Below, piece by piece: positions 1-27,131 of a stretch of 28,238 nucleotides of DNA. Within the stretch, counting starts at the first letter, position 1; each line of letters begins with the position of its first letter. The position numbers were made by a program, and so were the translations under genes. A model generated the notes under the pieces. It saw nothing but the letters and a program-made list of their open reading frames with translations. It did no database searches and was not told where the DNA came from. This stretch comes from a virus, in IMG/VR virus record IMGVR_UViG_3300024520_000391, positions 1 to 28,238 of that record; one strand, written 5' to 3'.

Positions 1-3000
1 AAATTCGTCACGCATATATTCGCCGTTCTGGTCGACAGAGACAAAGATCTCGCCCTGCTCAGCCTTGGCCTTGAGGTCCTCCTCGAGGTAGTTAGCCGTG
101 TCCGTGCCATCGAAGAACACCAGCTCGCTCGGCTCGTAGATCAGGTCGGTCTCGATGCCCTTGAGGATCTCATAGCGATTGTTGTTGTCTTGCATGATGG
201 CCCTGAGCTCGTCAGCTCGCTCATCGCTCATGTGCTCGTTGAGCTCCTCGGCCGTGGCGTTCACGTTGACCGCGAGGCGCCCGTTCGAGTCCCACATCTC
301 CAGCTCGTTGTCGACCGGATCGAACCTGATGTCAGTGATCCGCTCGCCTTGACTGTTGCGGATTGCCGTCTGCTCGCCAGTGATGAATCCGATCTGGTCG
401 TAGCCCTGCTCAGCCGCGAGGCGAACTATGCGCTTGATGGCCAGGGACACCCATGCGTTGCCCTTGAACGGGGCCTGCGGCTGCTTGCCTGCTTGGCGAT
501 TCCTCGCCTCATCGTACTCGAGCCGCATCATGGCTTGGAGCTTGGGCCTTGCCAGATCTGCAGTCAGCGCATCGAGCTTGTTAATCGCCATCACGCCGCC
601 ACCGGCTGCGATCATGTCTGGATCGCCATACTGGAACGGCTTGCCATCGACCTCGACGACCCAAGCGTAGCCCTTGTCGACGGCCACCCAGTCAGTCGGA
701 GGCGGGTCAATCCGCTCACGGTAGCCGGTCCTCGAGCCGGCTTGGTGGATGCCAGACTGCAGCTCCTCGATGAATAGGATCTTCTCGCCCTTGGGGCCTA
801 CGCGATCGGTTGTCCGTATCCACGCAAATACATTTTCCTGCTCCCAGTAATCGGCATCGAAATTCTCAATCTGCCGCTGCTGGATCTCGTCCAGTTCGCC
901 GCGATCGAGCCTCGCCCTGAGCTCCTCGATGTTGCTCTGCTCGTCCGTAATCTGGACGCCACCGAATGCGGTCATCTGGTCGGCAAAGTCTTGGTAGTCC
1001 TCAGGCGCCAGATTCTCGAACGAGACATTTATGATCTCGCCCTTGTCATTGGTCGTGCGCTCAACACGGACATCACCGATATTCGGGTTGTTGGCCACAT
1101 CGGTAATGAGCTCGTCGACCTCCTCATCGGTGAATTGCACACCAAGGCTCGGCCCTCTCAGATTGCCGGAATGCACGACCCCGCCACTCGGGACCTTTGG
1201 CGTCCTCAGCAAGATCTCGCGATCGTACTTGCCGCCGTCCAGCACAGAGCCCGTACCTGCGAACCGGGGAGCACCGGCAAACCCGCCGCGCTCGCGCTCT
1301 TGGATGTCAGTCTCAATGGCACCCTCGGCCGAAGCGACCGCGGCCCGTTCTTGATCTTGACCGTGGAGCCTGAGCAGGTACGGCCCAGGTTCGGCAACCG
1401 CCAGCCATGTCTTGCCCTCGTCTGGAGTCGCCGCAGCCGTTCCCATCTGCGGGTCGTAGATAATCTCGTAGTCGCGCTGTGAGACAAAATCAAAGCTGCT
1501 GTAGATGACCTCGCCATCGTTGAATCGGCTGTCGGGATCGAATCCGTATCGCTCGTAGACCTCCTCGAGCTCAATCAGATCCGTGGTGAGCTCAACCCTT
1601 GCAGCCATATCGCCGCCGTACACACTCTCCTCGACCACGATGCCATTTTTCCTGACGTAGGCGATGATCTGGTCCTGCGTGATCGTGCCGCCTTGCGCCT
1701 CGAAAAACTCCTCGACCTGCAGGAAGTCCAGCTCAGGGTAGGTGGTCTCAATGACCTGCTTGCGCTTGCCGGTTTCGCCTGCGTTGTGCTGGCTCAATGT
1801 CTCAGGCTTGACGCCGAGCTGTCTGGCCAGATCGCCCTCCATGACGACATGGACGGCTTCGCTGGACTCCCACATCCATCGGTTGCCCTTCTCGTCCCAT
1901 GTGCTGCGAATGATCGGGTCGGCCGTGGTGCTCCAGCCCTTTGCCTTGTACTCCATCTTGACCATCTGACGGAAGTTAGCTATCTGATCCTCGGTCGGGT
2001 TCTGCCGCACATCGACGGTTTTGTCGCCCATCTTGACGCGCAGCTTCTTGCTTGGCAGGTCGGTCTCATAGACCGGCTCACCATCCTCGTCGACCAGAGG
2101 CCTTTGGACCTTGGACACACCGGGCTGCTTCTTGAGCAGCGCCATCATCTGTTTCACTGGGCCCTTGGACTGGGGCATCGTCTGGGCTGCCACCATGACG
2201 CCTGAGTGGAAGCCGGGGATGCCTTGGTAGAACTCCTTTTGACCGGCGAGCTGGCCTCGCTGCTGCATACTGATTGTGGTGTGGGTCTCCACGTAGAAGG
2301 CGTCGAGCATCCTCCAGTCGCTCGCTGCAGCGAAAGCGGCCATGTTGTTGGCAGCGTGTGGCTCATGTTGCCGGGTCGACACGAAGAACGCAGCCGCATT
2401 CACTTCGGCCAAGGCCCGTATCACGCGGGAGCTCTGCCCAGTGCCCTTGAGTGTTTCCATCTCCTTCGGCGTCATCGACAGGAAGCCGAGGACCTGATGC
2501 CTGTTGTTCAGCATCAAGATGCCATCGGGATTTCCCATGCTGTCGAGGAGCGCGCCGGTCTGAGCCGGGTTGTTTAGTGTCGGGCCGGTCTGCTTTCCAA
2601 TGATCTTGCGGGTGAATACCTTGACTTTCTTGTTGCGCGGGGCCGGGGTGATCGGCTCGTCGGTGCCAACGGTTTGGCCCTTCTCGTCCATCATTGTGAA
2701 CGTGCTTTGCTGAGCCCCCATGAGGATATGGCCGAGAACCTGTACGTCAGAGCCATCGAGGAGCTTGCTGATGCGACCCGTAATCATCATGTCAGGCTGC
2801 GAGGCTGTCAGGGTGCCGCTCGGATGGTTGTGGGCCATCCAGACCTTTGCCGCTCCGGGGATCGTCAGGACTGCGCCAGCGTAGGTCGACGGATAGACGC
2901 TGGTGCCGTCGAATGTTCCACGACCATGTTCCACGACGCCGACGACATTGTCGTTCTTGTCGAGAACGAGACCCCAGAACCCCTCGCTGGCGTTCTTGCG

Positions 3001-4173
3001 GATCTCTGCCAGGACATGAGCCGCATCGTGGGCCGTGACGACCTTGGTGATGCCGGTCCTGATCTCGCGCTCCTCCTGCACCCTGACGATCGCCTTGTAA
3101 TTGGCCTTGGCCTCCTCGGCTCGTAACGGTTTCGCTGGCTGGTTGTTTGCGTAGAACTCGCCAGTGTCCTCCTTGACCATGTTCTGAAAGGCCCGAGTGA
3201 TGACCTCCTCGACGTCGCGCTTGTTGATGGCCTGCTGTGCCGTGCCGTGAGCCCGAGCCAACATCTGCGGCTGCAGGAACTTGAGGAAATAGAACATATA
3301 GTCGGGCAGCAGCACATCCTGATCGAGGCTGATGGCCATGTCGCTCGGGCCCTGCCGGGTCCGGTGCGGTGTGCCGGCGTTAGGGCCGACGCGCTGGATG
3401 TAGAGATCTCCCTCAGCACCCTTGCCAGTCTTGATGGTAAACGGCGGCTTTGGCGGTCCCTGCGGACCAGTGGTGAATGTGTAATTCCACGACTCCTCGC
3501 TGACGCCGTCTGGCTTGTCTGGCGGCAACGGCCCCATGAAATACTCGCCAGTGTCGGTGTCGAGCGTGATGCCGCCGCCCTCGGTGAGCGAGTCGATCTG
3601 ATTTACGAGATCGACCTCCTCATGGAATAGGGCCTGCATATCCTTACGGAGCTGGTCGCCACGCGCCTGCAGCGCCCGGAAGCTGTCGAATAGCTCGTAG
3701 GCATCTTTGCCCTTGAGCTGGCTGTCGCCAAACATCCCAGACTTGAATATATCCTTGTGGGGAAAGTGCATCTGGTTGAATCGCATGACGACCTGAGCAT
3801 CGTTGTTCAGGTCGATGTCCGGGCCACCGGGCTCCCAGTGCTTGATGTTGCCCTCGACCCACGCGATGTCAGCGAATTGCTGATTGAGGTTCTGATACTT
3901 GGTGCGGACTATTATCAACTGCGTCCGTGCCTTATCGAGCTGCGCCTCGCCAAATGAGCGGAGCTCTCCCAGGGTGTCACGCTTCACCGAAACCTTGGCG
4001 CCCTGTGCCTGCGCCTTTTTCGTGATGTCGAACAGTGTTTTGTTGATGTGGAGCTCGTACCGATCGAGGACCTGCTCATCGGTCAGGCCTTGGTCGATCC
4101 ACTGTTCGAGCAGAGCCTTGTCATCCTTCGACAAGGGTACGCCCAACTTCCTCATGCAATCCTTCAGTGCCAT
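1..4173 (-). CDS. Giant polyvalent phage protein with RadC-like JAB/JAMM domain (3' end outside window)
   Basis: I see an uninterrupted frame of 1391 codons from the ATG at 4173 to the window edge, checked codon by codon; the stop lies outside. The first 390 residues look helical and charged. Residues about 395-486 match the RadC-type JAB (MPN+) fold: E397 in the first strand, H448-N-H450-P-S-G, S458 and D461, then VLGHILMG at 479-486, in the order and spacing of RadC proteins. Residues about 550-630 resemble the same fold without metal ligands. Near 1131-1151 is IEELQSG followed by a HQAG..TGY block, then PFKG..W at 1235-1241, AIKR and GYDQI, a pattern known from large polyvalent phage proteins. 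It is the last gene of the tail/ejection operon and overlaps its predecessor by 10 bases. I infer a virion-delivered protein with possible isopeptidase or protease activity; the substrate is unknown. The fold assignment is strong, the role is inference. Confidence 0.85.
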   Translation of the reverse strand, partial: MALKDCMRKLGVPLSKDDKALLEQWIDQGLTDEQVLDRYELHINKTLFDITKKAQAQGAKVSVKRDTLGELRSFGEAQLDKARTQLIIVRTKYQNLNQQFADIAWVEGNIKHWEPGGPDIDLNNDAQVVMRFNQMHFPHKDIFKSGMFGDSQLKGKDAYELFDSFRALQARGDQLRKDMQALFHEEVDLVNQIDSLTEGGGITLDTDTGEYFMGPLPPDKPDGVSEESWNYTFTTGPQGPPKPPFTIKTGKGAEGDLYIQRVGPNAGTPHRTRQGPSDMAISLDQDVLLPDYMFYFLKFLQPQMLARAHGTAQQAINKRDVEEVITRAFQNMVKEDTGEFYANNQPAKPLRAEEAKANYKAIVRVQEEREIRTGITKVVTAHDAAHVLAEIRKNASEGFWGLVLDKNDNVVGVVEHGRGTFDGTSVYPSTYAGAVLTIPGAAKVWMAHNHPSGTLTASQPDMMITGRISKLLDGSDVQVLGHILMGAQQSTFTMMDEKGQTVGTDEPITPAPRNKKVKVFTRKIIGKQTGPTLNNPAQTGALLDSMGNPDGILMLNNRHQVLGFLSMTPKEMETLKGTGQSSRVIRALAEVNAAAFFVSTRQHEPHAANNMAAFAAASDWRMLDAFYVETHTTISMQQRGQLAGQKEFYQGIPGFHSGVMVAAQTMPQSKGPVKQMMALLKKQPGVSKVQRPLVDEDGEPVYETDLPSKKLRVKMGDKTVDVRQNPTEDQIANFRQMVKMEYKAKGWSTTADPIIRSTWDEKGNRWMWESSEAVHVVMEGDLARQLGVKPETLSQHNAGETGKRKQVIETTYPELDFLQVEEFFEAQGGTITQDQIIAYVRKNGIVVEESVYGGDMAARVELTTDLIELEEVYERYGFDPDSRFNDGEVIYSSFDFVSQRDYEIIYDPQMGTAAATPDEGKTWLAVAEPGPYLLRLHGQDQERAAVASAEGAIETDIQERERGGFAGAPRFAGTGSVLDGGKYDREILLRTPKVPSGGVVHSGNLRGPSLGVQFTDEEVDELITDVANNPNIGDVRVERTTNDKGEIINVSFENLAPEDYQDFADQMTAFGGVQITDEQSNIEELRARLDRGELDEIQQRQIENFDADYWEQENVFAWIRTTDRVGPKGEKILFIEELQSGIHQAGSRTGYRERIDPPPTDWVAVDKGYAWVVEVDGKPFQYGDPDMIAAGGGVMAINKLDALTADLARPKLQAMMRLEYDEARNRQAGKQPQAPFKGNAWVSLAIKRIVRLAAEQGYDQIGFITGEQTAIRNSQGERITDIRFDPVDNELEMWDSNGRLAVNVNATAEELNEHMSDERADELRAIMQDNNNRYEILKGIETDLIYEPSELVFFDGTDTANYLEEDLKAKAEQGEIFVSVDQNGEYMRDEF

Positions 4174-7306: not shown

Positions 7307-7689
7307 TAGCTGGCCTGCGGCGTTGCGACGATTTTATTGATTAGCTGCGTGGTCTCGTTGCGCTCGATGGCGAACACATAGACCGGATTCGGCTCACGCT
7401 CTTTTTGCTGGCCAAGCTGCACCACCAGATCCTCGAGGACCTGCTGGCTCATTCCTCCACCGGGGGCTCGGGATGCCAGTTTTTGCACGGCCTGAATGAG
7501 ATTGGCCTGCGTTTCGGAGCGGAGCATATCGGCTCCGGCGTTAGCGCGCTGCGCCTCAACGAGGGACTTAATTTCTGCCACCAGCTCGTCGAGTCCCTGA
7601 ATGGTTCGACGGCCGTTGTCACCGATCTCGACATCATCGCCACGCTCCCTCATTTCCTGCAGTTCTGCTGCTGTGAATACCTTAGCCAC
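7306..7689 (-). CDS. Small helical protein upstream of tail fibre, GTG start
   Basis: 127 residues starting at GTG 7689, eight bases inside the preceding ejection-protein gene, and ending in TAATG with the fibre. Predicted from composition to be mostly alpha-helical: residues 1-60 and 65-90 carry heptad-like Leu/Ile/Val spacing (LDELVAEIKSLVEAQ, LIQAVQKLASR), and a short beta-like C-terminal VYVFAIERNETTQLI block follows. No enzyme motif. Position directly ahead of a fibre would suit a fibre-connector or assembly protein. I do not recognise a named family. Confidence 0.7.
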   Translation of the reverse strand: MAKVFTAAELQEMRERGDDVEIGDNGRRTIQGLDELVAEIKSLVEAQRANAGADMLRSETQANLIQAVQKLASRAPGGGMSQQVLEDLVVQLGQQKEREPNPVYVFAIERNETTQLINKIVATPQAS

Positions 7690-10294
7690 CGAGACAGTCC
7701 TTTAGTGCTTTGAGCATATTTTTCCGCTTCTGGGCGAGCTCGAATTCCCTGTTAGCGTCCGTGCGTACCTTGACCGGCCTGCCATCCACGGTCTCTCCGA
7801 CCTGAGTGAGCTCGACGTCACCAAAGTCCTGAGTCGGCGCGAATTCCGGCAGTAGGTTCTGGGCCCTGGCCAACATCTGCGGATCGTGTGTTGCCGAGGA
7901 GAGCACAAGTTTTGTCAGCTTGTCGAGCTCCGAGGAGTCTATTTTCTCATCGCTCTGGTAGTAGGTCTCCCACGCCTCCATGGCAGCCCTGACTTCCGCG
8001 TTGGTCATGTCGTTGATCTCGATGCCTGACTCATCGAGCATCTTGGAAAGCTGTTCAAGCGCGGTGAGTAGCTCCCGCTTTTCCTCGTTGATCGTGAACT
8101 GGTCTCCGAAAATCTCCTCGCCGCTGGCCACACGATCCAGCGCCTCGAGCACCAGCTCAGGATCTCGAGCAGCGATATAGCCGCTCTCATGCAGGAATTC
8201 AGCAACATCATCGAGCGTCCTGCCGCCCTCGCGAATAAGGCCGCGGAAATTCAGCTTCATGTCGCGAGCGGTGAGCTCAGAATCAGGCGCCAGACCACCC
8301 ATTCTCTTGATTTCCTCAATCAAGTCAGGCCCGAAGATGGACCGCTGGCTCGGAAAGTCTCCGGCCCGGATCTTGTCGAGGTACGGATCCACAAACAGGT
8401 CGACGTCCTCCTTGTCGGCGCGCATCTGGGCATTGGTCGTAAAGATGACGCCACCGAATCGGTCCTGCTGGAACTGCTCGACATCATCCACACCGGCACG
8501 GCGAGCCAGATTCGGAATGCCGACCAGAATCATGGCCTGAAACTCAGCCGCCTCAGGCGAGGTCCCGCCCTCGACCAGTCGCTCCTTGAGCGTGGCGTGG
8601 AGCTCAGCGTCCTGACGCGCCTGCTCGGGATCCTCCTTGGCTTGGAGCGCCTGCAGCTCCTTGACCTCCTTGACCATGCTTTCCTTGACGGTCTGGGCCT
8701 CATTGGCCGACATCGGCTGGTCGATATTTTTGAGATCCCGCGCCAGCCCCCGGTGATGTTCAGTCGGAGCGATCTTCGCGAGGTACTGGCCTGCAGGGAT
8801 CTCGATGTCTAAGCCGTTGGCCTCGGCATCACCGAGATTCGCGATGCCAACGCTTTTCGCGACCTCGTCAGCGTCCATGCCCTGCTCTTGAAAGTAGTCG
8901 ATGAAACGCCGCGCCTCGATCAGAATTTTGCCATCCTTGCCGACGAGTTTATTTACGAATTCCTCGTACTTGGTCGGCGCATTCTTGCGGGTCTCAGATT
9001 TTTCGGCCGCATCACCCATGGCCTCAAACGCAGCAAGGCGTCCCTCGGCCTGCCTTATGTTCGCGCTGTCACGGATAAAGCTCGACCCAGGGCCGACGCC
9101 ACCGATCAGTGCCACGCCATACAGCGTGTGCGCAGCGATGTCACCGGCATCCGACCAGAATTCTCCACTGGTAAGGACGTCAAATACGCCGCCGTCGCCA
9201 GCCATGGCCTCCATCTCTGGTCTGGTGTCGCCTGCAGCTCTGGCCTGCCTTTTCAGGTACTCACGGCCCACGATTAACGTGGCCTCCTGAGCGACCTCAG
9301 TGACCAGCTCAGTGGCCACGCCTTCACCATATTTCAGGGTCACGCGAGCGACTGCCTGCCTCATGGTCGGCTTGTTCAGAATGTTGTTGATGACCGCGCC
9401 AGTCCGGTCATTCAGTATTTTATTGACGCCGGGGATCCGCTTGGTCAGGGCGCCGAAGCCAAGGCTCTCGAGAGCTGCGTTCACGCCACCGACCGCGGCC
9501 GAGGCCCACCGGGCCTGCTCCTCATCGAGACCCATGCCGATGTACTCGTCATAGGCCAGACCTCGCTCCAGCCGGAAAGCGGCCTCAGCGAACCCGGCCC
9601 TCGCACCGTATCCGGCACCAGTCATGGCGCCGATGCCAGCACCCGCAAGCGTACCGACACCAGCGGTAGATGTTCCTGCAACGAAAGCACCGCGAGCTGC
9701 ACCAATACCCGCGCCAACGGCAATCTCATCGAGAGCCTCGCCAGTCAGCCACGACATGATCGGGACCTGCTGCGCCGTGCCGGCAAGGACTTTCGCGTAC
9801 CACGTATCGGCGCCAAACATCCCGCCCTCGAGGAGCTGGTGCAGTTGATCGAGCTTGGCCTTGTCCTTCTCGTTGTCTGGATTCTCGAAATTCGTCAGTT
9901 GCCGGTCGCGGATCTCAGCGATCTCGGTCATCGCCCACCCAGACTGCCAGCTCAGCGACATCTGCCGGTACGATCGCTCGAGCCTCGAGAGCTCCTTGTG
10001 ATCGCGCTGCAGGACTGACAGGTGGTATGGATTCTCAGCAACGAACCGATTGAAGGCCGGGGCCCCATTGATCCGGTCGGTGTATTGGTCGTAGTCGAAC
10101 TCGCTGGCGGCGAGCCTTTTCTCGAGACCCTCGAGATCGTTGGCGACCACTTCCGAGGGCAGCTTGGTGACAGCCGACACACCGAAGATCCTGGCAGACG
10201 TATCGTAGTCGTACTGCTGCACGTTCGCAGCCTCGAGCCGCGCCTTGCGCTGGCGCTCCAGTTGATCCGCAACGTATTCTTGAGTGGCCCCCAT
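7682..10294 (-). CDS. Internal virion / DNA-ejection protein (gp16-like position) with polyvalent-type domain
   Basis: 870 residues from the ATG at 10294 (TAATG with the previous gene). Residues 1-185 are charged and helical. Residues about 190-235 are a Gly/Ala repeat (VGAGIGAA, GAGIGAMTGAGYGA) of the kind that crosses membranes in podovirus ejection proteins; a second hydrophobic patch (LYGVALIGGVGPG) lies near 391-403. Residues 495-530 (IEIPAGQYL...DQPMSANEAQ) and 655-735 (LIEEIKRMGG...LNFRGLIREGGRTLDDV, LHESGYI, LEALDRV) match modules I recall from large polyvalent phage proteins. No lytic transglycosylase domain is visible, unlike T7 gp16. Likely ejected with the DNA and inserted in the host envelope; the C-terminal domain may act in the cytoplasm. 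The structural role is fairly sure, the enzymatic content unknown. Confidence 0.8.
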   Translation of the reverse strand: MGATQEYVADQLERQRKARLEAANVQQYDYDTSARIFGVSAVTKLPSEVVANDLEGLEKRLAASEFDYDQYTDRINGAPAFNRFVAENPYHLSVLQRDHKELSRLERSYRQMSLSWQSGWAMTEIAEIRDRQLTNFENPDNEKDKAKLDQLHQLLEGGMFGADTWYAKVLAGTAQQVPIMSWLTGEALDEIAVGAGIGAARGAFVAGTSTAGVGTLAGAGIGAMTGAGYGARAGFAEAAFRLERGLAYDEYIGMGLDEEQARWASAAVGGVNAALESLGFGALTKRIPGVNKILNDRTGAVINNILNKPTMRQAVARVTLKYGEGVATELVTEVAQEATLIVGREYLKRQARAAGDTRPEMEAMAGDGGVFDVLTSGEFWSDAGDIAAHTLYGVALIGGVGPGSSFIRDSANIRQAEGRLAAFEAMGDAAEKSETRKNAPTKYEEFVNKLVGKDGKILIEARRFIDYFQEQGMDADEVAKSVGIANLGDAEANGLDIEIPAGQYLAKIAPTEHHRGLARDLKNIDQPMSANEAQTVKESMVKEVKELQALQAKEDPEQARQDAELHATLKERLVEGGTSPEAAEFQAMILVGIPNLARRAGVDDVEQFQQDRFGGVIFTTNAQMRADKEDVDLFVDPYLDKIRAGDFPSQRSIFGPDLIEEIKRMGGLAPDSELTARDMKLNFRGLIREGGRTLDDVAEFLHESGYIAARDPELVLEALDRVASGEEIFGDQFTINEEKRELLTALEQLSKMLDESGIEINDMTNAEVRAAMEAWETYYQSDEKIDSSELDKLTKLVLSSATHDPQMLARAQNLLPEFAPTQDFGDVELTQVGETVDGRPVKVRTDANREFELAQKRKNMLKALKDCLGG

Positions 10295-14883: not shown

Positions 14884-15462
14884 CTACCCCGTTGGCCAGA
14901 GTGAGCGCGGCTTGACCGGCGAGTACAGGCCGGAGGTCGGGACGCCCGGAACCAGCTTGCCCACGTTGTTGGCACCGGGAATTGGTGAATACATGGTGCC
15001 CGGTGCGGTATTCGCAGTTGCGCTGGTGCCGCTCGGACCTCCCTTGCCACCCATGCCCACGTAAGCGGACACGGCCGATGTGATGCCGTCGATGATGCCA
15101 GCGGTCTGAGCTGCCTTGCCTTCGCGCTCTGCAGCCTCGGCCCGGTACTGCAGGCCTTGGGCCTCGTTCTGGCCATTCCACAGCACCGACATGACGCGGT
15201 ACTCGCCTTCGGTGTTCAGATCTCCGAGGAGCTTGGTCAGGCCATCGGTGCCGGCGCCTGACATACCAGCCACCGCAATGGCGCGCGAGTGCATGAGCTC
15301 CTTGTTGCGGATCTCCTCGGCCATCTCGCGGGAGGTAATGGCCATCTGCCGAACGGCTGCCTCTTGGAGGCCTTTGGCTTCCTCCTCCTTGAGCTTTTTC
15401 GCCTGATAGCCCTTATAGGCCCCGGCGACCAGCATGACTGCTGCGACTGCTATCTGTGCCAT
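14884..15462 (-). CDS. Internal virion protein B-like (T7 gp14 analogue) with N-terminal membrane segment
   Basis: 192 residues from the ATG at 15462, which lies 13 bases inside the preceding gene. Residues 2-16 (AQIAVAAVMLVAGAY) are a hydrophobic helix without a signal-peptidase site. Residues 18-60 are a charged helix (KKLKEEEAKGLQEAAVRQ), followed by an AGMSGAG turn, another helix and a second hydrophobic Gly/Ala region near 120-140. This layout is that of T7 gp14-type proteins, which are ejected first and form a pore in the outer membrane. The order gp13-like, gp14-like in the operon agrees. The C-terminal 50 residues are Pro/Gly-rich. The call rests on architecture plus context. Confidence 0.75.
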   Translation of the reverse strand: MAQIAVAAVMLVAGAYKGYQAKKLKEEEAKGLQEAAVRQMAITSREMAEEIRNKELMHSRAIAVAGMSGAGTDGLTKLLGDLNTEGEYRVMSVLWNGQNEAQGLQYRAEAAEREGKAAQTAGIIDGITSAVSAYVGMGGKGGPSGTSATANTAPGTMYSPIPGANNVGKLVPGVPTSGLYSPVKPRSLWPTG

Positions 15463-15911
15463 TTATCGAACCATCCGTAGTAGACGCCTTCCATGTGCTC
15501 GAACCCCAGTCGATTCATCGTGTAGCAGCTCTCAGCGGTTGTCGCTATTGCTATCACTGGCCCTCGATACGCACGGCACCAATCGAGTGCCCTGCACAAC
15601 GCGCGCATGATGATAATGGATTTCAGGTGGGGCTGCAGTTCCGGCTTGTATTCAGTGAAGTATTTGCCAATGCCACCCTCGCGAACGAGGCCAATGAATC
15701 CGGCAGGTTTGCCGTCCATCAGGATGACGAATGCGCGCATGGTGCCGCGCTGCGGCGCACCGTAGTATTCCAAGATGTCCGCGGTCGTCGCGAACCTTGA
15801 CTCGATTAACGGGGAGCTCGTCGCTTGGTGTTGCTTCGCTTCTCGACTGACTCGAACTCCGCTATCGCTGCCAAGATCGTTGCTGGCCGCGGTGTTGCTG
15901 CTTGCAGACAT
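15450..15911 (-). CDS. GNAT-fold protein in T7 gp13 position
   Basis: 153 residues from the ATG at 15911; a GTG at 15932 would add seven residues. Both starts lie inside tail tubular protein B, giving an out-of-frame overlap of 106 or 127 bases. The acetyltransferase-like domain starts near residue 32 (RFATTADILEYY), continues through AFVILMDGKPAGFIGL and ends with the typical TMNRLGFEHMEGVYYGWF. The usual acetyl-CoA pyrophosphate loop (R/Q-x-x-G-x-G/A) is not evident; HLKSIIIMRAL stands in its place. T7 gp13 belongs to a family related to this fold, and this gene lies between the tail tube and the gp14-like gene, so a virion assembly role without catalysis is likely. Residues 1-30 are low-complexity Ser/Ala/Asn. 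Confidence 0.75.
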   Translation of the reverse strand: MSASSNTAASNDLGSDSGVRVSREAKQHQATSSPLIESRFATTADILEYYGAPQRGTMRAFVILMDGKPAGFIGLVREGGIGKYFTEYKPELQPHLKSIIIMRALCRALDWCRAYRGPVIAIATTAESCYTMNRLGFEHMEGVYYGWFDKWHR

Positions 15912-18688
15912 ATTCTTGAATCCGGTATCCACTCCCCGCCAAAGGGGAAATTGTCCTCATGGTAGTCCTCCCAGATCGTATCGGCAGGCGTGTCCTGACC
16001 CTGCTCAACGAGCGGCAGGTCCGATAGGTTGCTGAAATCCGGGCCGTACTGTAATCCTTGGTAGTGCAAATCCGAGGCAATAAATCCGATCTTGTTGACC
16101 TTCTTGCGCTCCAGCAATCCGATGCCGTCGAGAGTGCCGAGCTTGGCGCTCTTGAACAGTGCCGTGTACGGCAGGCCCCAGATGACATTGGAGAACGGTG
16201 CGCCAGTGAGGAGCGAGAGGTCAATGTCACCAGAGCTGTCGACCCGAGCAAGGCCCTTGTCAGCCCCATCAGCCCAGATCGAAACGTCCGCGTCATCCAG
16301 ATGGCCTGAATCAATACGCAGGGCTGGTGTCGCGTCGGTAGTTACATTTACGGTGCTGACCGGGACTCCGGTGTACTGGCCCCATGCGTCACCGAGGTAG
16401 TTGTTGTTGCCGCCAACCGCCTCGGACTCCAGCGCCCACTTGAGCAAATACTTGCGCGCTGCAACCCTTTGATGACTGACCGTGTAGTAGACCTGATCCT
16501 CGACCGTGCCGGGGAGGATGGCGACATCATCGACAGTCCACAGCCGACTTTGGACTGTGTCCACGCCCAGGATGACCTCGCACCAGCAGATGACGTTCTC
16601 GAGCCGATCGTAGATCAGCACTCCGACAGTGCCATCGTTGCGCACACAATGGACGCGGACGTCAGGCTTCATCTGCACAGCGATCTGCCGGATGCCGGCG
16701 TCGTTGTAGTCAGGCGCAAAGATCGACAGATCCACGCTCAGGTAATCAGCGCCGGCCGAGTCGTAGCTGAGCTCGTAGAGCCGCTGCAGGGTCCGATCGA
16801 CAAAAACGCCCTTGCTGGCGATTGTCTTGATGTTGAAATTGGTCGGCGTCAGCGCCTCGTCGAACGAGCTCGAGCGCACCCCGAGAGGATGGTTGCCGTC
16901 CATCCGGGCCGCGTCGACGTCTGCAGCATTCTCGCTGGTGCCGAGCAGCAGCCTGCCAAAGGACTTGAGCCAGTTGATAATGCGGATCGGGCCTGAGCCA
17001 ATGTTTCGATTGATCGGGCCAGAGTCGCCCTCGGTCTCGTCATCGAACGATTCGTAGTTGTCCGACACCGAGCCATAGATGCGATCGTTGCCAGCGAACC
17101 AGAGCCGATTCTCATGGATGTCGACGGTCGAGGGAAAGCCATCGAACCCAGACCACTCACCGAGCTCCCAGTCCTTTGACGCCAGCAGGGAGCCGAAAGG
17201 CTCAATCACGTAGGCGTCGATCAGCTTCGATGTGGTAAAGCCGGTCATCCGGGCAATGCCGGTGCGCGAGCCGCCAGTGTAGCTCAGGGTGCAGTTGATC
17301 GGGCCGGCTGTGAAATCGCCAGCCTTCACGCCGATGCGATAGAAAATGATCTGACCGTCCTGCTCATCGAGGAAAGTCGTGTTGGTGTTGGAAGTGTACT
17401 GCGGCGTCAGGTCATTGAACGGGCCTGAGTCCGAGCCGATGGAGAACTGCACCGTGATCGTGCCGATGCCCGGAGGCATATTCTCGATGATGATGCCGAA
17501 ACGCCGCGCCTCGCCGTTGCCGGTGACGCGGATCGTCGGGGAGAACTCGTCCGCAGCATTGACCGCCTCGGTGACGACCTGACCCTGGGAGGCGACACGA
17601 ATCAAGACGCCGGCCCGGTGCTCGTCTGGGGCCATCGAGGCATCGAATATATCGGCACTGGACTGGACCTGAATATCGCCCTCGATGGCGCTCACTGTTA
17701 CCGTCGAGCCATCTGTGCTGAGCGTCTGGAACGGGCCGTCCTCGGGCCCGTAGGCCACCAGCGACCAAGAGTTGCGAACGACGACGCCATTGGGATCTAT
17801 GTAGCCGCGGCGCTCGATCTTTTGCATATTCAGGTTTCGCGAGATGACGTAGATAACGTCACCGGACTGGGACCACCGCACAGCCGCGATGTCGTCCTCG
17901 TCGTTCCAGCCGGTCTCAAACTGGACGATCTGCTGAACGCTTTGGAAGATCTCGCAGTCATCGCAGACCGCGGTGTAATTGCTGCTGTTGGCCAGCTCGA
18001 TCCAAAAACTCGCTCCGGGCGGTATGAAAGCGATGTTGTGCCGGCCTTGGCCGAGATTCGTTTCGCGGACCAGCTCGTCGCCGTTTACTGTCGTGCCAAT
18101 ACGCAGCCGAACAAACTCCGTGATGACATGGAGGTCCATCGAGTGCTCGACCCCCTGATCTGGACCAGCGACCGAGATCTCCTGAGTGATCTTGGCAAAG
18201 GCATCGCCAGTGCCGGTCAGGTTGCAGGTAAAATTCGGCGTGGCGGCACTACCGATCGCGGCCGTGGCACCCAGGTCCGAATCATCGTTCCACTGAGAGA
18301 ACGTAAAAGTGGATGTGAAATCGCCATCAGGGATGGTTGTGCTGACAGTCGGCCTGACGAGCAGGACGTCATTAACGCGGAACCGGAGCTTGCCGCGCTG
18401 GTCGGCGCCGATGCCTCGCTCTGATCCAAACTCGATCAGCGTCGTGTCATCAACACCGAAAACAAACGGCATCTGCCGAGTGAGGTTGCCATTGGGGCGG
18501 TCCTCGGAATACATCTGGTCGATCATTTTCATGCCCGGTCTGAGCATCATCGAGCCGAGCACTCGAGGCATCCAGTTTGTCTGCTGAGCAGCCGACATGG
18601 ACATTCGCTCGAGATCCAGTCTGGCCAGACCGCGCTTTGAAACGACGCCTCGGTTGAATGCGAGGAGGACCTTTTCGCCTATGCTCAT
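15806..18688 (-). CDS. Tail tubular protein B (T7 gp12-like nozzle)
   Basis: 960 residues from the ATG at 18688, three bases after the tubular protein A stop. The N-terminus (GEKVLLAFNRGVVSKRGLAR, then MLRPGMKMI) and the GRLLLGTSENAADVDA-type and VDRTLQRLYELSYD-type blocks are characteristic of the podovirus nozzle family. Beta-propeller-like strands such as DDIAAVRWSQSGDVIYVI (near residue 270) agree with the known fold. It is longer than T7 gp12 (about 794 residues). The C-terminal block ICLQAATPRPATILAAI is the usual end of the family, after which about 20 basic residues overlap the next gene. It forms the distal nozzle of the short tail below the gatekeeper protein. Confidence 0.9.
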   Translation of the reverse strand: MSIGEKVLLAFNRGVVSKRGLARLDLERMSMSAAQQTNWMPRVLGSMMLRPGMKMIDQMYSEDRPNGNLTRQMPFVFGVDDTTLIEFGSERGIGADQRGKLRFRVNDVLLVRPTVSTTIPDGDFTSTFTFSQWNDDSDLGATAAIGSAATPNFTCNLTGTGDAFAKITQEISVAGPDQGVEHSMDLHVITEFVRLRIGTTVNGDELVRETNLGQGRHNIAFIPPGASFWIELANSSNYTAVCDDCEIFQSVQQIVQFETGWNDEDDIAAVRWSQSGDVIYVISRNLNMQKIERRGYIDPNGVVVRNSWSLVAYGPEDGPFQTLSTDGSTVTVSAIEGDIQVQSSADIFDASMAPDEHRAGVLIRVASQGQVVTEAVNAADEFSPTIRVTGNGEARRFGIIIENMPPGIGTITVQFSIGSDSGPFNDLTPQYTSNTNTTFLDEQDGQIIFYRIGVKAGDFTAGPINCTLSYTGGSRTGIARMTGFTTSKLIDAYVIEPFGSLLASKDWELGEWSGFDGFPSTVDIHENRLWFAGNDRIYGSVSDNYESFDDETEGDSGPINRNIGSGPIRIINWLKSFGRLLLGTSENAADVDAARMDGNHPLGVRSSSFDEALTPTNFNIKTIASKGVFVDRTLQRLYELSYDSAGADYLSVDLSIFAPDYNDAGIRQIAVQMKPDVRVHCVRNDGTVGVLIYDRLENVICWCEVILGVDTVQSRLWTVDDVAILPGTVEDQVYYTVSHQRVAARKYLLKWALESEAVGGNNNYLGDAWGQYTGVPVSTVNVTTDATPALRIDSGHLDDADVSIWADGADKGLARVDSSGDIDLSLLTGAPFSNVIWGLPYTALFKSAKLGTLDGIGLLERKKVNKIGFIASDLHYQGLQYGPDFSNLSDLPLVEQGQDTPADTIWEDYHEDNFPFGGEWIPDSRICLQAATPRPATILAAIAEFESVEKRSNTKRRAPR

Positions 18689-18691
18689 GGC

Positions 18692-19336
18692 CTATCCGAT
18701 CAGTTGATTGCGTGAACCACCGTCGAAATCGGCATTGCGGAATCCTTGCCGAGACCGAGCCCAACCGCCTTTTGGCGGGAACTTCGCAGGCTCCTCCATG
18801 GCGTCGACCGCCTTCGCTTCACCGAGCCACATCTTGTACCAGCGAGCGAGCTCGTTGGCGTCGTAGTCGAGGCCGGTCAGGCGTGGTGCCACTTTCATGG
18901 CCATGTAGTGCTCGGCCATCTCGGTGAAATTCATTGGCCAGAGCGCGAAGTCAGCGCCGAACTGGTTGTCATTGCTGACGTATTTCACATAGATCGGGTC
19001 TGCGTCCGAGAACCAGAACGCGCCCTCGCGGGAGTATCTGGTAATCGGGATCTGGAAATACTCGTCATAGCAGACGGCCATCGTCCTGAGCCAGTCCACC
19101 GGACTTTCAAAGGCAAAGATGTAGCCGAATGATGGCGTGATCGAGGGGCTGGAGTCGAGCTGCACAGTTCGCTGAGCGAATTGCCACTGGCCCATCTGCA
19201 GGATCCGGTTGACGAAATCGTTGTCCCAGATGTCGTCGAGCTTGTAGCGGGGCTCGCGATTCTCAGTGAGAGTCGCCAGTCTCCGCTCGCCAAGGATGGT
19301 CAGAGCGCCGTTGTAGATCGAGAGCTTGTCAGTCAT
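18692..19336 (-). CDS. Tail tubular protein A (T7 gp11-like gatekeeper)
   Basis: 214 residues from the ATG at 19336, preceded by GGAG with a six-base spacer. The start (LSIYNGALTILGERRLATL, then EPRYKLDDIWD) and the following WQFAQRTVQL, FAFESPVDWLRT and IYVKYVSND blocks are the classic signature of the gp11 family; length is close to T7 gp11 (196 residues). It forms the ring between portal and nozzle and recruits fibres in T7. A perfect hairpin with a GNRA-type loop lies 16 bases upstream of the gene. Confidence 0.9.
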   Translation of the reverse strand: MTDKLSIYNGALTILGERRLATLTENREPRYKLDDIWDNDFVNRILQMGQWQFAQRTVQLDSSPSITPSFGYIFAFESPVDWLRTMAVCYDEYFQIPITRYSREGAFWFSDADPIYVKYVSNDNQFGADFALWPMNFTEMAEHYMAMKVAPRLTGLDYDANELARWYKMWLGEAKAVDAMEEPAKFPPKGGWARSRQGFRNADFDGGSRNQLIG

Positions 19337-20254: not shown

Positions 20255-21103
20255 TTAGGCAATGAGCGTGTTGTCGATTACGTTCACGACGACGACGCCA
20301 CTGTTCTGCAGCAGTTGTGAGCCCATGTAGATCGAGCAGCGAGACCAACTGTAGTCCTGCTCCTCGTCATACCCCGCGCGCGCCTCGATGTTGTCGGCGT
20401 TGTAAGCATGGCCGATCGAGTTTTGGTGATACGCGAAACAATCACCGTCAGCCGTCGCGTTACCCGGCAGATCTGGATGCACGATCCAGTTCATTCCGAG
20501 CCACTTGTACGTCTGTTGGCGGTCGCGCCACGCTTCCGGCACATTGTCGATCGGGCCGTTTTGCGTGAAGTCTCGAGAGGTAAACGATGCCAGGGTCAGC
20601 ATCACGCCCTCGAAGTTAGGCGTGACCAACATGGTGATGCGGCCGTCATACGGAACATCTGCCTGACCGAGGCGAGTTTTAGCCTCGAGACAAAGGTTCA
20701 GCGTAGGTGCGGCGGCTGCGCCAGTGTTGACCGTGCCGGTTGCCAGCTCCGTGATGATGTCTTGGTCAATCTTGCGATTGATGACTGCCATGCAGGTCAT
20801 TTGCATGATCGCGCGCTGGTTGCCCTGCGAAGCGAAGATGTTGAAATCCGTCTTGCGAACGAGATCATGCCATTCGACCAGCGTAGCCACAGGCTGCTGG
20901 AGATCGTCGCCGCGAGCAGGAATCAACCCGTTCACGCCGCGTGTCTTGGCGGTTGCGCCGCCAGAGCCGGCTACCAGAAACGTCGCCTGATTGCCTTTGA
21001 TGACAGCTTCCGTGGTCGTGCTCTCCCGAAGGAGCGACTGGTGCTGCTCAAACGCGGCGATGAATTCCTGCCGGTATTGAATTTGAAACGCTGTTTCGGC
21101 CAT
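20255..21103 (-). CDS. Major capsid protein
   Basis: 282 residues from the ATG at 21103 with GGGAG seven bases upstream. Pattern typical of podovirus capsid proteins of the HK97 fold: an N-terminal helix (FIAAFEQHQSLLRES), then GATAKTRGVNGLIPARGDD, LVEWHDLVRKTDFNIFASQG, then a helix with INRKIDQDIITELATGTVNTG (the long spine helix) and a beta-rich C-terminal part ending in VVVVNVIDNTLIA. It follows scaffold and small head genes and precedes a decoration-like gene and a terminator, the standard order. No protease or cleavage site is evident. The call rests on pattern plus context. Confidence 0.85.
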   Translation of the reverse strand: MAETAFQIQYRQEFIAAFEQHQSLLRESTTTEAVIKGNQATFLVAGSGGATAKTRGVNGLIPARGDDLQQPVATLVEWHDLVRKTDFNIFASQGNQRAIMQMTCMAVINRKIDQDIITELATGTVNTGAAAAPTLNLCLEAKTRLGQADVPYDGRITMLVTPNFEGVMLTLASFTSRDFTQNGPIDNVPEAWRDRQQTYKWLGMNWIVHPDLPGNATADGDCFAYHQNSIGHAYNADNIEARAGYDEEQDYSWSRCSIYMGSQLLQNSGVVVVNVIDNTLIA

Positions 21104-23287: not shown

Positions 23288-23603
23288 CGTCTAATTCTCT
23301 CGCTGCTATTTTGTCGGGGTCCGTCCTTGTCGGGGCCGACTTTAGCATCCATACCAAAGTGGTTCCTACGAATCTCTTGCCTTCTGCAAATGCTGTTGCG
23401 TGTGAGTCGCCGGGGCGGTAACTCAGATCGTGCGTCCCGGCTGCTCGAATAATGTAGGGCAGTATCAGTTTTTGCTGTCGCTCCGAGGCATTGCCCTCGT
23501 AAAGTGCCCGGATCGCCTGTACCTCAGCCTCGGTGTAATCCGGCCGCTCGATCGGATTCTCATGCGGCAGGCACTCCTCGACTCGCGCTTTCGTTTCTGT
23601 CAT
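23250..23603 (-). CDS. Bbp19-like small phage protein
   Basis: 117 residues from ATG 23603 (ATGA with the portal stop). The core PDYTEAEVQAIRALYEGN, then THDLSYRPGDSHATAFAEG, ending in KRFVGTTLVWMLK, resembles the Bbp19-type phage domain (recalled from Bordetella phage BPP-1 relatives), a small protein regularly encoded between portal and scaffold. Its role is not established. The last 38 bases overlap the scaffold start. The C-terminal 30 residues are hydrophilic and probably disordered. Confidence 0.7.
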   Translation of the reverse strand: MTETKARVEECLPHENPIERPDYTEAEVQAIRALYEGNASERQQKLILPYIIRAAGTHDLSYRPGDSHATAFAEGKRFVGTTLVWMLKSAPTRTDPDKIAARELDDGNDRSDNKPDN

Positions 23604-25246
23604 GCGGCATCGGCCTGAGCCATGCTGGCCTCAGCTTGCCCCACATCCCTTGCGGCTTCTGCTCCTGTTCGGGCCAGTTCGGCCTCCTGCTGCATCTGAG
23701 CCATTTCCTGCGCCTCAGCAATCTGTTTTTCGACGTCAGCCAGCGGCACCAGATGTTTCGCCGGCAGGCCCACACCCTCGAGCGCATCCCGAAGTGTGCC
23801 GGTCATATCGACGTTGTAGGCTGCAGTCGGATCCATGGCCATCGCCTGCTCGAGAAGTCCTGCAGTCTCCATGAATACGCTTGCGTTCTTGCGTTCGATC
23901 GCGTCGTGCAGCGGCGATACGAACTTGAAGTGGATCTCGCGGCCCTGCAGCTCTTTGGGCATATCTTGGACTGAGCCGAAGGTGCCAGCGCGCAACAGGA
24001 GGTCGAAGGTATCTTCACAAAGTTGGCCGTTGTATTCATGCTCCATCGGCTCGAATAGTGGCAAGGCTGCCCTGACGTATTCCTCCACGCGCTGACCCAC
24101 CTCGAAGGCGGTCATGTCGCCCTCGGGAGGCGGCAATGTCAGTTTGTTCAAATAAAACGCATCAGCGATCAGTCGCATCTGCGCATCGCGCGAGTCGTAG
24201 CCCATCGGCAGACCGCGGCGATCTTGGTTGATTGGTCTGAGCACATCACCCTTGCGCTCGTCGTATTCATGGTCGGCCCAGGTGATGCCGCCAGCAAAGA
24301 GCTGGATGTCCGAGCGGACTGCGTCCTGCGTTGCGATCATTGGTGGCCTGACCGACATCTCGCCGGCTTCGAGCAGCGTCAGGCTCATGGCCTGTAGCAA
24401 ACGCGCATCGGGAAGTCCCGCGACGGTCGCAGGACTGTACGCATATTGGGAGCCCGATACGGTCTGCCACCGCGGCAGGGTGAAGCCACGATTGGTTGAT
24501 GGATGCTCGGCCATGATGTGATTGTTGAGCACATCCATGTAAACGATCATCCATGGGAATCCTGCGCCCTGCTCCTCCTGACCGCGGTAGATGTCGGTCG
24601 ATACGACCAGTCTCATGCACTCGGTTTTCTGCAGGTTCTCGATGCCTTTCGCCCACCGGGCGACGTTCTGATGCAGCGCGTCCTCGCCAAACATGGCGAC
24701 GAGCTGCTTGATGGTCGGCTTCCACTTCACATAGATCTCACCGATCTTGCCGGTCTCGTCCTCGGCCCATGCGACATCGCGCAAATGCCAAGTGCGAAAC
24801 AACAGGTGCGGCTGCTCGGTATTCCAGTTGATCTCTTGGGAGATGCAGCACTGGCCGAAGGCTGCGAAATCGGCATCAGCCTCGGTCGTTGCCCGGATAA
24901 AACAGGCGATGCGATCGTACATGGCCCACTTCTGGCGCTTGGTGGCCCAGTCGAGCCATGCTTTCGCTGGCTGGCTCAGCGCGTCGTAGTCATGCACCGA
25001 GATCTGAAACCAGTCTTTTGCGCGCGGTCTGAGCATTGCTGCGAAAGAGGTTGAGAGCTCGCGATGCACGATGATCGGATAACTCGAATACAGGTGCTCC
25101 GCGAACTCCTCCCCAATGTAGCGCGTCAGAGTGAAGTCGGCGCGTTGCGGGTAGAAGTTTTCCGCAATTTCCTGCCACAGGGTCGTCATGGCCTTGCGCT
25201 CGTTGTATAGAGACATCCCTCGCGTTACGAGCTGAGCAGGTTTCAT
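23600..25246 (-). CDS. Portal / head-to-tail connector protein
   Basis: 548 residues from ATG 25246 (ATGA with the previous gene). Matches the podovirus head-tail connector family in length and pattern: an early WQEIAENFYPQRADFT block, then ELSTSFAAMLRPRAKDWF, a LFRTWHLRDVAWAEDE core, an IVYMDV segment, SGSQYAYSPATVAGLPDAR, then PPPEGDMTAFEVGQRVEEY and a C-terminal Gln/Glu/Ala-rich helix (EAQEMAQMQQEAELA), which is the usual barrel/crown region. Twelve copies form the packaging vertex and the tail attachment ring. Placed after terminase and before scaffold. Confidence 0.92.
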   Translation of the reverse strand: MKPAQLVTRGMSLYNERKAMTTLWQEIAENFYPQRADFTLTRYIGEEFAEHLYSSYPIIVHRELSTSFAAMLRPRAKDWFQISVHDYDALSQPAKAWLDWATKRQKWAMYDRIACFIRATTEADADFAAFGQCCISQEINWNTEQPHLLFRTWHLRDVAWAEDETGKIGEIYVKWKPTIKQLVAMFGEDALHQNVARWAKGIENLQKTECMRLVVSTDIYRGQEEQGAGFPWMIVYMDVLNNHIMAEHPSTNRGFTLPRWQTVSGSQYAYSPATVAGLPDARLLQAMSLTLLEAGEMSVRPPMIATQDAVRSDIQLFAGGITWADHEYDERKGDVLRPINQDRRGLPMGYDSRDAQMRLIADAFYLNKLTLPPPEGDMTAFEVGQRVEEYVRAALPLFEPMEHEYNGQLCEDTFDLLLRAGTFGSVQDMPKELQGREIHFKFVSPLHDAIERKNASVFMETAGLLEQAMAMDPTAAYNVDMTGTLRDALEGVGLPAKHLVPLADVEKQIAEAQEMAQMQQEAELARTGAEAARDVGQAEASMAQADAA

Positions 25247-25485
25247 CCCAGAGATTCCCGGTCAGTCATCACCGTCTGCGCTCGAGAGCCTTGTCGTTTC
25301 GCAGACTTCCTGCGCTCGACTCTGCGGATCTCCTCCTCGTCTGGGAGGGAGGCATTGGCGAACATCTTATTCTTGGCCTTGGTGATTTTGCCGCGTTTCT
25401 TTTCGCGGCGCTCCTCGTTGGTCTTGTAGCCTCGACCAAGTCCTAAATTGAAGCTGCGCTTTGCGGTATTTTTCAGTCCACTCAT
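25243..25485 (-). CDS. Small basic phage protein between terminase and portal
   Basis: I choose the ATG at 25485, which overlaps the terminase stop (ATGA) and follows AAGGAGAAGG; this gives 80 residues. A longer reading from 25572 lies inside the terminase gene and has no comparable start signal. Rich in Lys/Arg (NEERREKKRGKITKAKNK). The C-terminal block PDEEEIRRVERRKSAKRQGS followed by TVMTDRESLG resembles a motif ending small phage proteins that I recall from similar positions beside portal genes (an R-x-x-R-G-x-A-x-T-x-[ML]-T pattern). Function not established. Confidence 0.75.
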   Translation of the reverse strand: MSGLKNTAKRSFNLGLGRGYKTNEERREKKRGKITKAKNKMFANASLPDEEEIRRVERRKSAKRQGSRAQTVMTDRESLG

Positions 25486-27131
25486 CGGTTCCTTCTCCTT
25501 GGTCCCAAATTGACAGACGGCCTGCGGTTGATCTTGCCGAGCATCGTACCCGCAAGCTGATCTTTTCGCCACTCATGCAAGTGAGTTACCGATCTGGGGC
25601 CCGAGCTCCAGCTCTGCACCACGGCATCGCCGCGATCAGGCGAGCGGCCGAGCAATGCGACCGCGTCCTTCTTGGTCATCACCTTGATTCCGTTCGGTGT
25701 CAGCTCCCATGTGAGGATGGTGAGATCCGCTTTCAGCATGGGATCGTCAGGCAGTCCGATCGGTGAGCCACCGTCCTGGGCCGGGTCTAAGGCCTCCATG
25801 AATTTCCAGTAGACCTCGGCGCGCTTGTTGAAGAATTTGAGCTGCTTTTCCTTGGTCCGAGCGACTGACTTGTCCATGCCGACATGACGCTGGCAGTCGA
25901 CGCCGTTTTCCTCCAGATGCGCATACGCCTCGGCCCCGGTGCGCTCGCCGCAGTCGATCACTGGAACTGCAGAATGCTTGCGATGTTTGAGCACAAGGGC
26001 AGCGAGGTCCCGGCCGTGAGGAGTCTCGGACCCTGGGACCGCGATCAGGTTCGGATAAAACCCATCATAGCGCGGTGCGAGTACCGCTTCGTCGCGTTTG
26101 CTGGCGCCATCCACACCGATCGCGCACATCGGGACATTGAGTGGCGGGGATCCGAAAAATTCCTGCGTCCAGCGATTCTGGGCCGCGATGACCCAGTCGG
26201 TCGGCACAAGCTGGTCTGGCTCGTCCTGACGAGCAGCCATGAAATTGCCGTCACGAATAGCACTTCTGAGAGGCTCTTGGAGTGAGTCCAGTTTGGCGGC
26301 GTATTTTCCATCGCCAGCGAGAAATGGATTGTCGTCAAGGCGCCCCGGAATGAAGGTCCTCGATTCCGGCTTGAGCATTTTCGGGGTGCCGTCATCTGAG
26401 TTTCTCCCTGATGGAATTCTGACATCGGGCCCATCGACCCAGTGATCGAAAGATTTTCCGGCATCGTTGACCATGGTCACGACCCATCGGAGCTCACCGG
26501 GCTCGGCCGGGTTCTCGTAGCGATTATCCAGCCACGGCGCGAACATCGGGATGATCCAGTCGCCTGCTGATGTGGTTGGCGGGTTGGAGGCTAAAATCAC
26601 GCGGCAGCGTTGCTTATCGTCCGAGCTTCGGACCCAACCCATCAAAAAGCGAATCGCCGCTTCTCGATTCTGCACAACCTCGTCAATGCCGAGGAGATCG
26701 TGCGGCTGCCCCTGCCAGTGGTCCTCGTCGCCGGGTTTTGCGATACCGCCAAAATCAATGGTGCGGCCCTCGACGGTTTTAAGCCGTGGAGGAGCGGATC
26801 CGTTGTAGCCCTTCTCGGTGCCGTTTATTTCCTTGGCGCGGTCGGTCAGGCCAGTCAGATCGGTGTAGTGCTTGCGAATTAGAAGCGTTTTCTGGTGCTC
26901 GGTCGCAGCCAGACCACACAAAAGATCGGTTTTGCCGCAGCCGCCTGATCCACCGTAGAGCAAAACGTCCGCTTGGCATCTGACCGCTTGGAGCTGAGGG
27001 CCCGGTGTTGGAAACCATAAGCGGCCATCGGATCGCTCTTGCACCAGCTTGTCCATCTCGGCCTGCTTTTCAGGCGGGAGCTGGTCGTATTTTCCGATCA
27101 GCTCCTCGATCAGTGCGGACTCTTGCGTCAT
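25482..27131 (-). CDS. terL: Terminase large subunit
   Basis: 549 residues from ATG 27131 (ATGA with the previous gene). ATPase: Walker A GGSGGCGKT at 60-68 after VLLY; Walker B DLLGIDE at 145-151; the coupling motif RVILASNPP near 177-185. Nuclease part: AIGVDGA at 337-343 (first acidic residue), VPVIDCGERTGAEAY at 389-403 and SPDRGDAVVQSW at 497-508, the usual three acidic clusters of the RNase H-like domain. It packages DNA into the prohead through the portal. Length is typical (about 500-600). No separate small subunit is evident; the gene before it encodes a different type of domain. Confidence 0.93.
   Translation of the reverse strand: MTQESALIEELIGKYDQLPPEKQAEMDKLVQERSDGRLWFPTPGPQLQAVRCQADVLLYGGSGGCGKTDLLCGLAATEHQKTLLIRKHYTDLTGLTDRAKEINGTEKGYNGSAPPRLKTVEGRTIDFGGIAKPGDEDHWQGQPHDLLGIDEVVQNREAAIRFLMGWVRSSDDKQRCRVILASNPPTTSAGDWIIPMFAPWLDNRYENPAEPGELRWVVTMVNDAGKSFDHWVDGPDVRIPSGRNSDDGTPKMLKPESRTFIPGRLDDNPFLAGDGKYAAKLDSLQEPLRSAIRDGNFMAARQDEPDQLVPTDWVIAAQNRWTQEFFGSPPLNVPMCAIGVDGASKRDEAVLAPRYDGFYPNLIAVPGSETPHGRDLAALVLKHRKHSAVPVIDCGERTGAEAYAHLEENGVDCQRHVGMDKSVARTKEKQLKFFNKRAEVYWKFMEALDPAQDGGSPIGLPDDPMLKADLTILTWELTPNGIKVMTKKDAVALLGRSPDRGDAVVQSWSSGPRSVTHLHEWRKDQLAGTMLGKINRRPSVNLGPRRRNR
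25491..25500 (-). promoter_or_regulatory. Ribosome binding site deciding the start of the small basic gene
   Basis: AAGGAGAAGG on the coding strand, five bases ahead of the ATG at 25485. It lies inside the terminase gene and supports the short rather than the long reading of the small basic protein. Confidence 0.7.

Follow-up and report, generated by a model that had tools for sequence, protein, structure and literature searches.

What a RadC domain does inside a giant phage protein is a question of some reach, since RadC proteins are common among bacteria and plasmids, no reaction has been established for them and their connection with DNA repair is contested. Here, we address this question for a stretch of 28,238 bases from an uncultured virus (IMG/VR record IMGVR_UViG_3300024520_000391), referred to as the window in its whole length, in which the last gene of a late operon encodes a giant protein with such a domain. 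Our analysis indicates that this domain (copy 1) keeps a complete JAMM metal site and is directly followed by a second RadC fold that has lost it (copy 2). On balance, we consider it probable that both form a two-domain module of a phage polyvalent protein, in which a zinc-dependent JAMM hydrolase is combined with a retained partner half and which would be packaged, injected and active early in infection.

The two RadC copies of the giant protein

An earlier note on this DNA, made from the sequence alone, had recognized the JAMM ligands E397, H448, H450, S458 and D461 in RadC spacing, and these residue numbers proved exact. The Pfam model RadC (PF04002) reaches 68.2 bits on copy 1 against a curated cut-off of 22.1 (E=7.8e-19; 1.5e-21 in a six-frame search), and the RadC structure 2qlc matches the giant protein in phmmer at 1.9e-5. 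The spacing H448-x-H450-x7-S458-x2-D461 equals the JAMM motif as previously defined, with an asparagine between the histidines being an accepted variant in distant relatives (PMC300881). Both NCBIfam RadC models remain below their cut-offs on the window protein (TIGR00608, 48.8 vs 133.85 bits; NF000642, 67.5 vs 180).

Structure prediction against RadC and MPN folds, the check proposed in the earlier note, returned the RadC fold. The AlphaFold2 model of residues 372-671, built from 60 sequences, has a mean predicted local distance difference test (pLDDT) score of 92.4 and a predicted template modelling (pTM) score of 0.86. Its copy 1 superimposes on 2qlc with Z 16.0 and a root mean square deviation (rmsd) of 2.1 Å across 121 residues, the runner-up entry reaching 10.2. 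The next neighbours are ubiquitin-system JAMM enzymes, namely BubCD (9ea4, Z 10.2), AMSH (9.6) and P. furiosus JAMM1 (9.3), and with this distance the predicted fold clearly belongs to the RadC clade.

In a 72-row alignment of relatives with a mean column identity of about 29%, E397, S458 and D461 are invariant. These residues lie outside the pattern used for the search; HNHP and G belonged to that pattern, and their conservation in the alignment is uninformative. A check independent of the motif, i.e., a search with copy 2 only, led to a 3948-residue open reading frame (ORF) in another genome, in which the copy-1 site is intact too. Judged by alignment and model, copy 1 is a RadC-clade JAB domain with an intact JAMM site and not a chance match, and its site is under strong constraint.

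As a description of the domains, the earlier note was right on residues 383-496 and missed the second RadC fold at 508-648. This conserved region lacks an HxH where it would be expected. Predicted alone, copy 2 matches 2qlc with Z 13.8 (rmsd 2.3 Å across 108 residues) and the next entry with only 5.7, which rules out an unrelated domain. Foldseek also ranks 2qlc first (1.4e-4), and the order of helices and strands is identical in both halves of the AlphaFold2 model. Furthermore, the copy-2 profile matches open frames of 197 to 289 residues in bacterial genomes (5e-10 to 3e-7), and all five chromosomal matches examined are RadC proteins with HNHPSG, aligned end to end. HxH occurs in just 2 of 70 copy-2 sequences, both in local contexts unlike the RadC site. 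The window's copy 2 has no matching Pfam family, and 3 of 56 copy-2 sequences touch RadC weakly. Based on predicted fold and profile matches, copy 2 is a dead RadC domain. Among 369 genomes from a single class, only two gave a copy-2 match at E<=1e-15, one being the query genome.

The losses in the two copies are complementary. Of 106 solo RadC sequences, 99% have the Asp in the 'LDH' motif and 95% have the Ser in the C-terminal S..erG motif. Copy 1, with its complete metal site, mostly has Gly at the 'LDH' Asp position, and among the 72 copy-1 domains Asp is left in about 2%. The window copy has Gly as well, and the stretch 'VLGHILMG', earlier taken as typical of RadC, therefore departs from the family at exactly this position. 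Copy 2 shows the reverse, having no metal site but retaining the corresponding Asp (D624) without exception (56/56 sequences); the S..erG Ser is frequent. At the level of sequence, this pattern looks like a division of labour after duplication.

With the RadC family (PF04002; 2qlc of Chlorobium tepidum) the module shares the fold, the E...HNHPSG...S..D metal site of copy 1 and the sequence homology of both copies. Canonical RadC, in contrast, occurs solo and has a single JAB domain, whereas the phage module has two in a row, one without the 'LDH' Asp and one without the metal site. An active and a dead JAMM fold side by side are also known from MPN+/MPN- pairs, e.g., Rpn11-Rpn8 and BRCC36-KIAA0157, which are separate subunits of eukaryotic ubiquitin complexes; the phage copies are both of the RadC clade and both in one chain. 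A phage family with a duplicated RadC, in which one half appears active and the other inactive, could point to the residues serving catalysis and those serving partner or substrate, and the tandem offers a concrete two-domain construct for expression and assay.

Relatives and origin of the tandem

Some 70 giant ORFs, found in viral contigs as well as in bacterial genomes, share the pair of RadC and pseudo-RadC. A search of viral contigs with the whole giant protein gave no relatives, while the JAB domain alone as query retrieved an intact homologue of 2542 residues (L002:3134-10762) with 59% identity across the first 698 residues. As this version is complete, about 1150 residues are probably missing from the window protein. 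The family was collected by DNA pattern: a broad HNHPSG pattern gave mostly solo RadC, and a Trp in front (W-x-AHNHPSG) selected the giant family, with 49 viral and 19 genome stretches and 20 further viral stretches for the F/Y version. Once duplicates and chance matches had been removed, the domain was present in about 70 ORFs, which span 336 to 4151 residues and are mostly truncated by locus ends.

Several lines of evidence place this family among phages. Among 50 related viral contigs, 24 encode a portal protein above the curated cut-off (PF12236 in 15, P22-type in 9, without overlap), and VirB4 was found in none. Pfam domains in 18 long members comprise RadC (18), LPD38 (6), LPD22 (5), inorganic pyrophosphatase (InPase, 4) and DdrB-ParB (2), and more rarely LPD3, PBECR3 and ART-PolyVal (2 each) as well as PBECR5 and GGDEF (1 each). 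LPD38, InPase and DdrB-ParB are listed as phage-only in the 2017 survey of polyvalent proteins (PMC5512222). The polyvalent-type modules named in the earlier note are thus borne out by the relatives, which carry LPD38, LPD22, InPase, DdrB-ParB, ART-PolyVal and PBECR.

Like the phage-type polyvalent proteins described in that survey, including DdrB, the N4 virion RNA polymerase, LPD38 and PBECR proteins, the proteins found here are giant, multidomain and encoded in a late operon beside virion genes, and relatives share marker domains; the RadC module is additional, being the sole Pfam marker domain of the window protein. From the same source, RadC was known as part of long multidomain proteins of conjugative elements, to which it had been reserved, and the sections available mention no pseudo-RadC partner (PMC5512222). 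The present family extends RadC to phage-type polyvalent proteins.

Four large viral proteins in BFVD match the tandem as a whole (TMq 0.73-0.80). The viral proteins A0A6J5M0M8 and A0A6J7XFQ9 are structural matches to the whole tandem and bear the database name 'RadC-like JAB domain containing protein'; they stem from uncultured phages, and we found no account of their second copy. A search of an isolate-phage collection (50,697 records; E limit 1e-5, 0.01 for one query) did not find the whole tandem; in Tenacibaculum phage Gundel_1, a solo JAB protein is all that is present. A literature search for tandem or inactive RadC/JAB domains of this kind gave nothing relevant, with most subscription journals outside its reach.

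A quick tree of 139 columns has a supported branch that separates nearly all copy-1 domains of tandems from solo RadC. The tandem protein L195 is an exception on the solo side, whereas the 'solo' L187, placed within the tandem group, is short and doubtful as an ORF. The conjugative plasmid of Pseudomonas sp. KHPS1 (L207) encodes the same tandem in an open frame of 1810 codons. Since this copy nests among phage sequences, the tree argues for transfer of the module between phages and conjugative plasmids in at least one case, likely in the direction from phage to plasmid. In the plasmid record (L207:13800-19232; NZ_CP100552.1), the frame opens with the tandem; the annotated coding sequence of a zincin-like metallopeptidase starts only at 14826 and therefore leaves the RadC part unannotated. 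The genome of Endozoicomonas acroporae (G051, the source of L172) contains two separate giant tandem-RadC ORFs of 3249 and 2560 codons (at C55 and C248), which probably represent two prophages.

Possible function of the module

Taken together, the tandem looks like a conserved enzyme module that is probably injected. Copy 1 would act as a RadC-clade JAMM hydrolase that depends on zinc, and copy 2, a RadC domain that lost its metal site, would be kept as partner or substrate-binding half, as in MPN+/MPN- pairs. The giant protein would be produced with the virion proteins; its packaging and co-injection are plausible, and the module could then act early in infection on a host substrate or on the incoming genome.

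Several points weigh against this interpretation. The reaction of RadC is not established (PMC11981726), the literature examined shows no biochemical activity of RadC, and we found no virion proteomics on these uncultured phages. The window protein is truncated, and as Pfam detects nothing but RadC in it, the label 'polyvalent' depends on the relatives. Taken alone, the hhalign comparison of copy 1 with copy 2 is moderate (probability 74%, E 2.9e-5), and the tree was built quickly from a small number of columns.

Regarding the substrate, a nucleic-acid or nucleotide-linked one appears somewhat more likely than a ubiquitin-like conjugate. Two studies describe RadC-type JABs as lacking the groove for the ubiquitin tail and, for this reason, prefer a role in processing nucleic acids or nucleotides (PMC5512222; PMC3482391). 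In a DALI comparison, RadC-like domains were noted to resemble metalloproteases and not nucleases (PMC11981726), which weighs against a nucleic-acid substrate and would suit an isopeptidase. We nevertheless rank nucleic acid or nucleotide first, with self-processing and ubiquitin-like conjugates behind.

A more specific and decidedly tentative version of the module, in our view rather doubtful in its details, treats RadC as an asymmetric pair. Copy 1 would keep the zinc site, and copy 2 would keep the 'LDH' Asp and the S..erG end. These copy-2 features could help to complete or gate the copy-1 active site, or else bind the substrate, and the ready-made pair would be injected by the phage as an early-infection enzyme. 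The complementary losses are consistent with this idea, the action of the copy-2 Asp on the copy-1 active site being conjecture.

An unlikely alternative is a protease that cuts the giant polypeptide into working parts at assembly or after injection. The 2017 survey proposes such a role for zincin metallopeptidases of polyvalent proteins (PMC5512222), and the present module is of JAMM type and located N-terminal to middle in very long chains. Many tandem giants, however, contain in addition a zincin-like HExxH motif, the type to which that job is ascribed, at a nearly constant 237-243 residues downstream of the RadC site in 12 of them (L144, L162, L168, L142, L152, L167, L146, L159, L185, L139, L147 and L171), and in RadC proteins of the solo type there is nothing that would need processing.

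Still less probable is the role considered in the earlier note, an injected isopeptidase stripping ubiquitin-like conjugates of host defence, e.g., of type II cyclic oligonucleotide-based antiphage signalling systems (CBASS) or Bil-like systems. Although the JAMM site is complete and ubiquitin-system enzymes follow RadC in the structural ranking, RadC ranks far ahead of them as a match, its clade is reported to lack the residues that form the ubiquitin-tail groove, and no feature of the window suggests a conjugate target; removal of host conjugates is unsupported. Equally improbable is a virion scaffold or binding domain with an incidental metal site: the giant gene does lie among virion genes and copy 2 illustrates that the fold can be retained without the site, but a passive role would not require E, S and D to be invariant in 72 diverged sequences.

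Gene context and further observations

All main genes of the window are located on the minus strand (Table 1), in the order terminase large subunit, portal, major capsid, tail tubular proteins A and B, internal virion protein homologue, tail-fibre-like protein and several large unknown proteins, with the giant protein coming last. By homology, these genes make up the late operon of a podovirus (terminase, portal, capsid, tail tubes, internal virion protein) and share the orientation of the giant gene, in agreement with the late-operon position assumed earlier. The portal is closest to those of Pelagibacter podoviruses (28% identity).

Table 1. Coordinates of the features discussed, in positions of the window.
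Feature	Position	Strand	Evidence or remark
Giant polyvalent-type protein gene	1..4173	-	Open at contig edge, hence truncated (1390+ residues); nearest relative, L002, has 2542
Copy 1, catalytically complete RadC-clade JAB domain (predicted), residues 383-496	2686..3027	-	PF04002 E=7.8e-19; 2qlc Z 16.0
E397, JAMM glutamate (general acid/base position)	2983..2985	-	E in 72/72 aligned relatives
H448-N-H450, JAMM zinc ligands (H448 2830-2832, H450 2824-2826)	2824..2832	-	Sequence
S458-x-x-D461, JAMM serine and zinc-ligand aspartate (S458 2800-2802, D461 2791-2793)	2791..2802	-	Both invariant in relatives
Copy 2, pseudo-RadC, residues 508-648, predicted RadC fold without metal site	2230..2652	-	AlphaFold2 pLDDT 87.2, pTM 0.77; 2qlc Z 13.8; profile matches chromosomal RadC proteins
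D624 of copy 2, equivalent of the RadC 'LDH' Asp	2302..2304	-	Invariant in 56/56
Conserved downstream module around 'EELQSGIHQ' (residues about 1113-1275)	349..837	-	Homology to L002; no Pfam match
Terminase large subunit	25482..27131	-	phrog_979 E=7.7e-26; upstream of giant gene, same orientation
Podovirus portal / head-tail connector	23600..25246	-	PF12236 E=5.1e-56
Major capsid protein	20255..21103	-	PF19821 E=3.3e-27
Tail tubular proteins A and B	15806..19336 (18692-19336 and 15806-18688)	-	phrog_394, phrog_376
Internal virion protein homologue	14884..15462	-	phrog_418 E=1.3e-11

Within the giant protein, the downstream module of the form 'E-[IVL]-QSDWHQ' (window 349-837, minus strand) is recurrent in giant phage proteins, including L002, L134, L126, L172 and others. 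A PADLOC match to mad5 (E 9e-4, residues 279-323) lies outside the RadC module and was judged a chance hit.

Two further observations concern the remaining genes. ORFs 12266-13876 and 13756-14880 (minus strand) overlap by 121 bases in different frames of the same strand, and one of the listed start codons is probably placed too far upstream. Moreover, window positions 7682-10294 (minus strand) encode an 870-residue protein matching part of the 2231-position family phrog_9880, with relatives in Cobetia, Pseudomonas and Xanthomonas phages.
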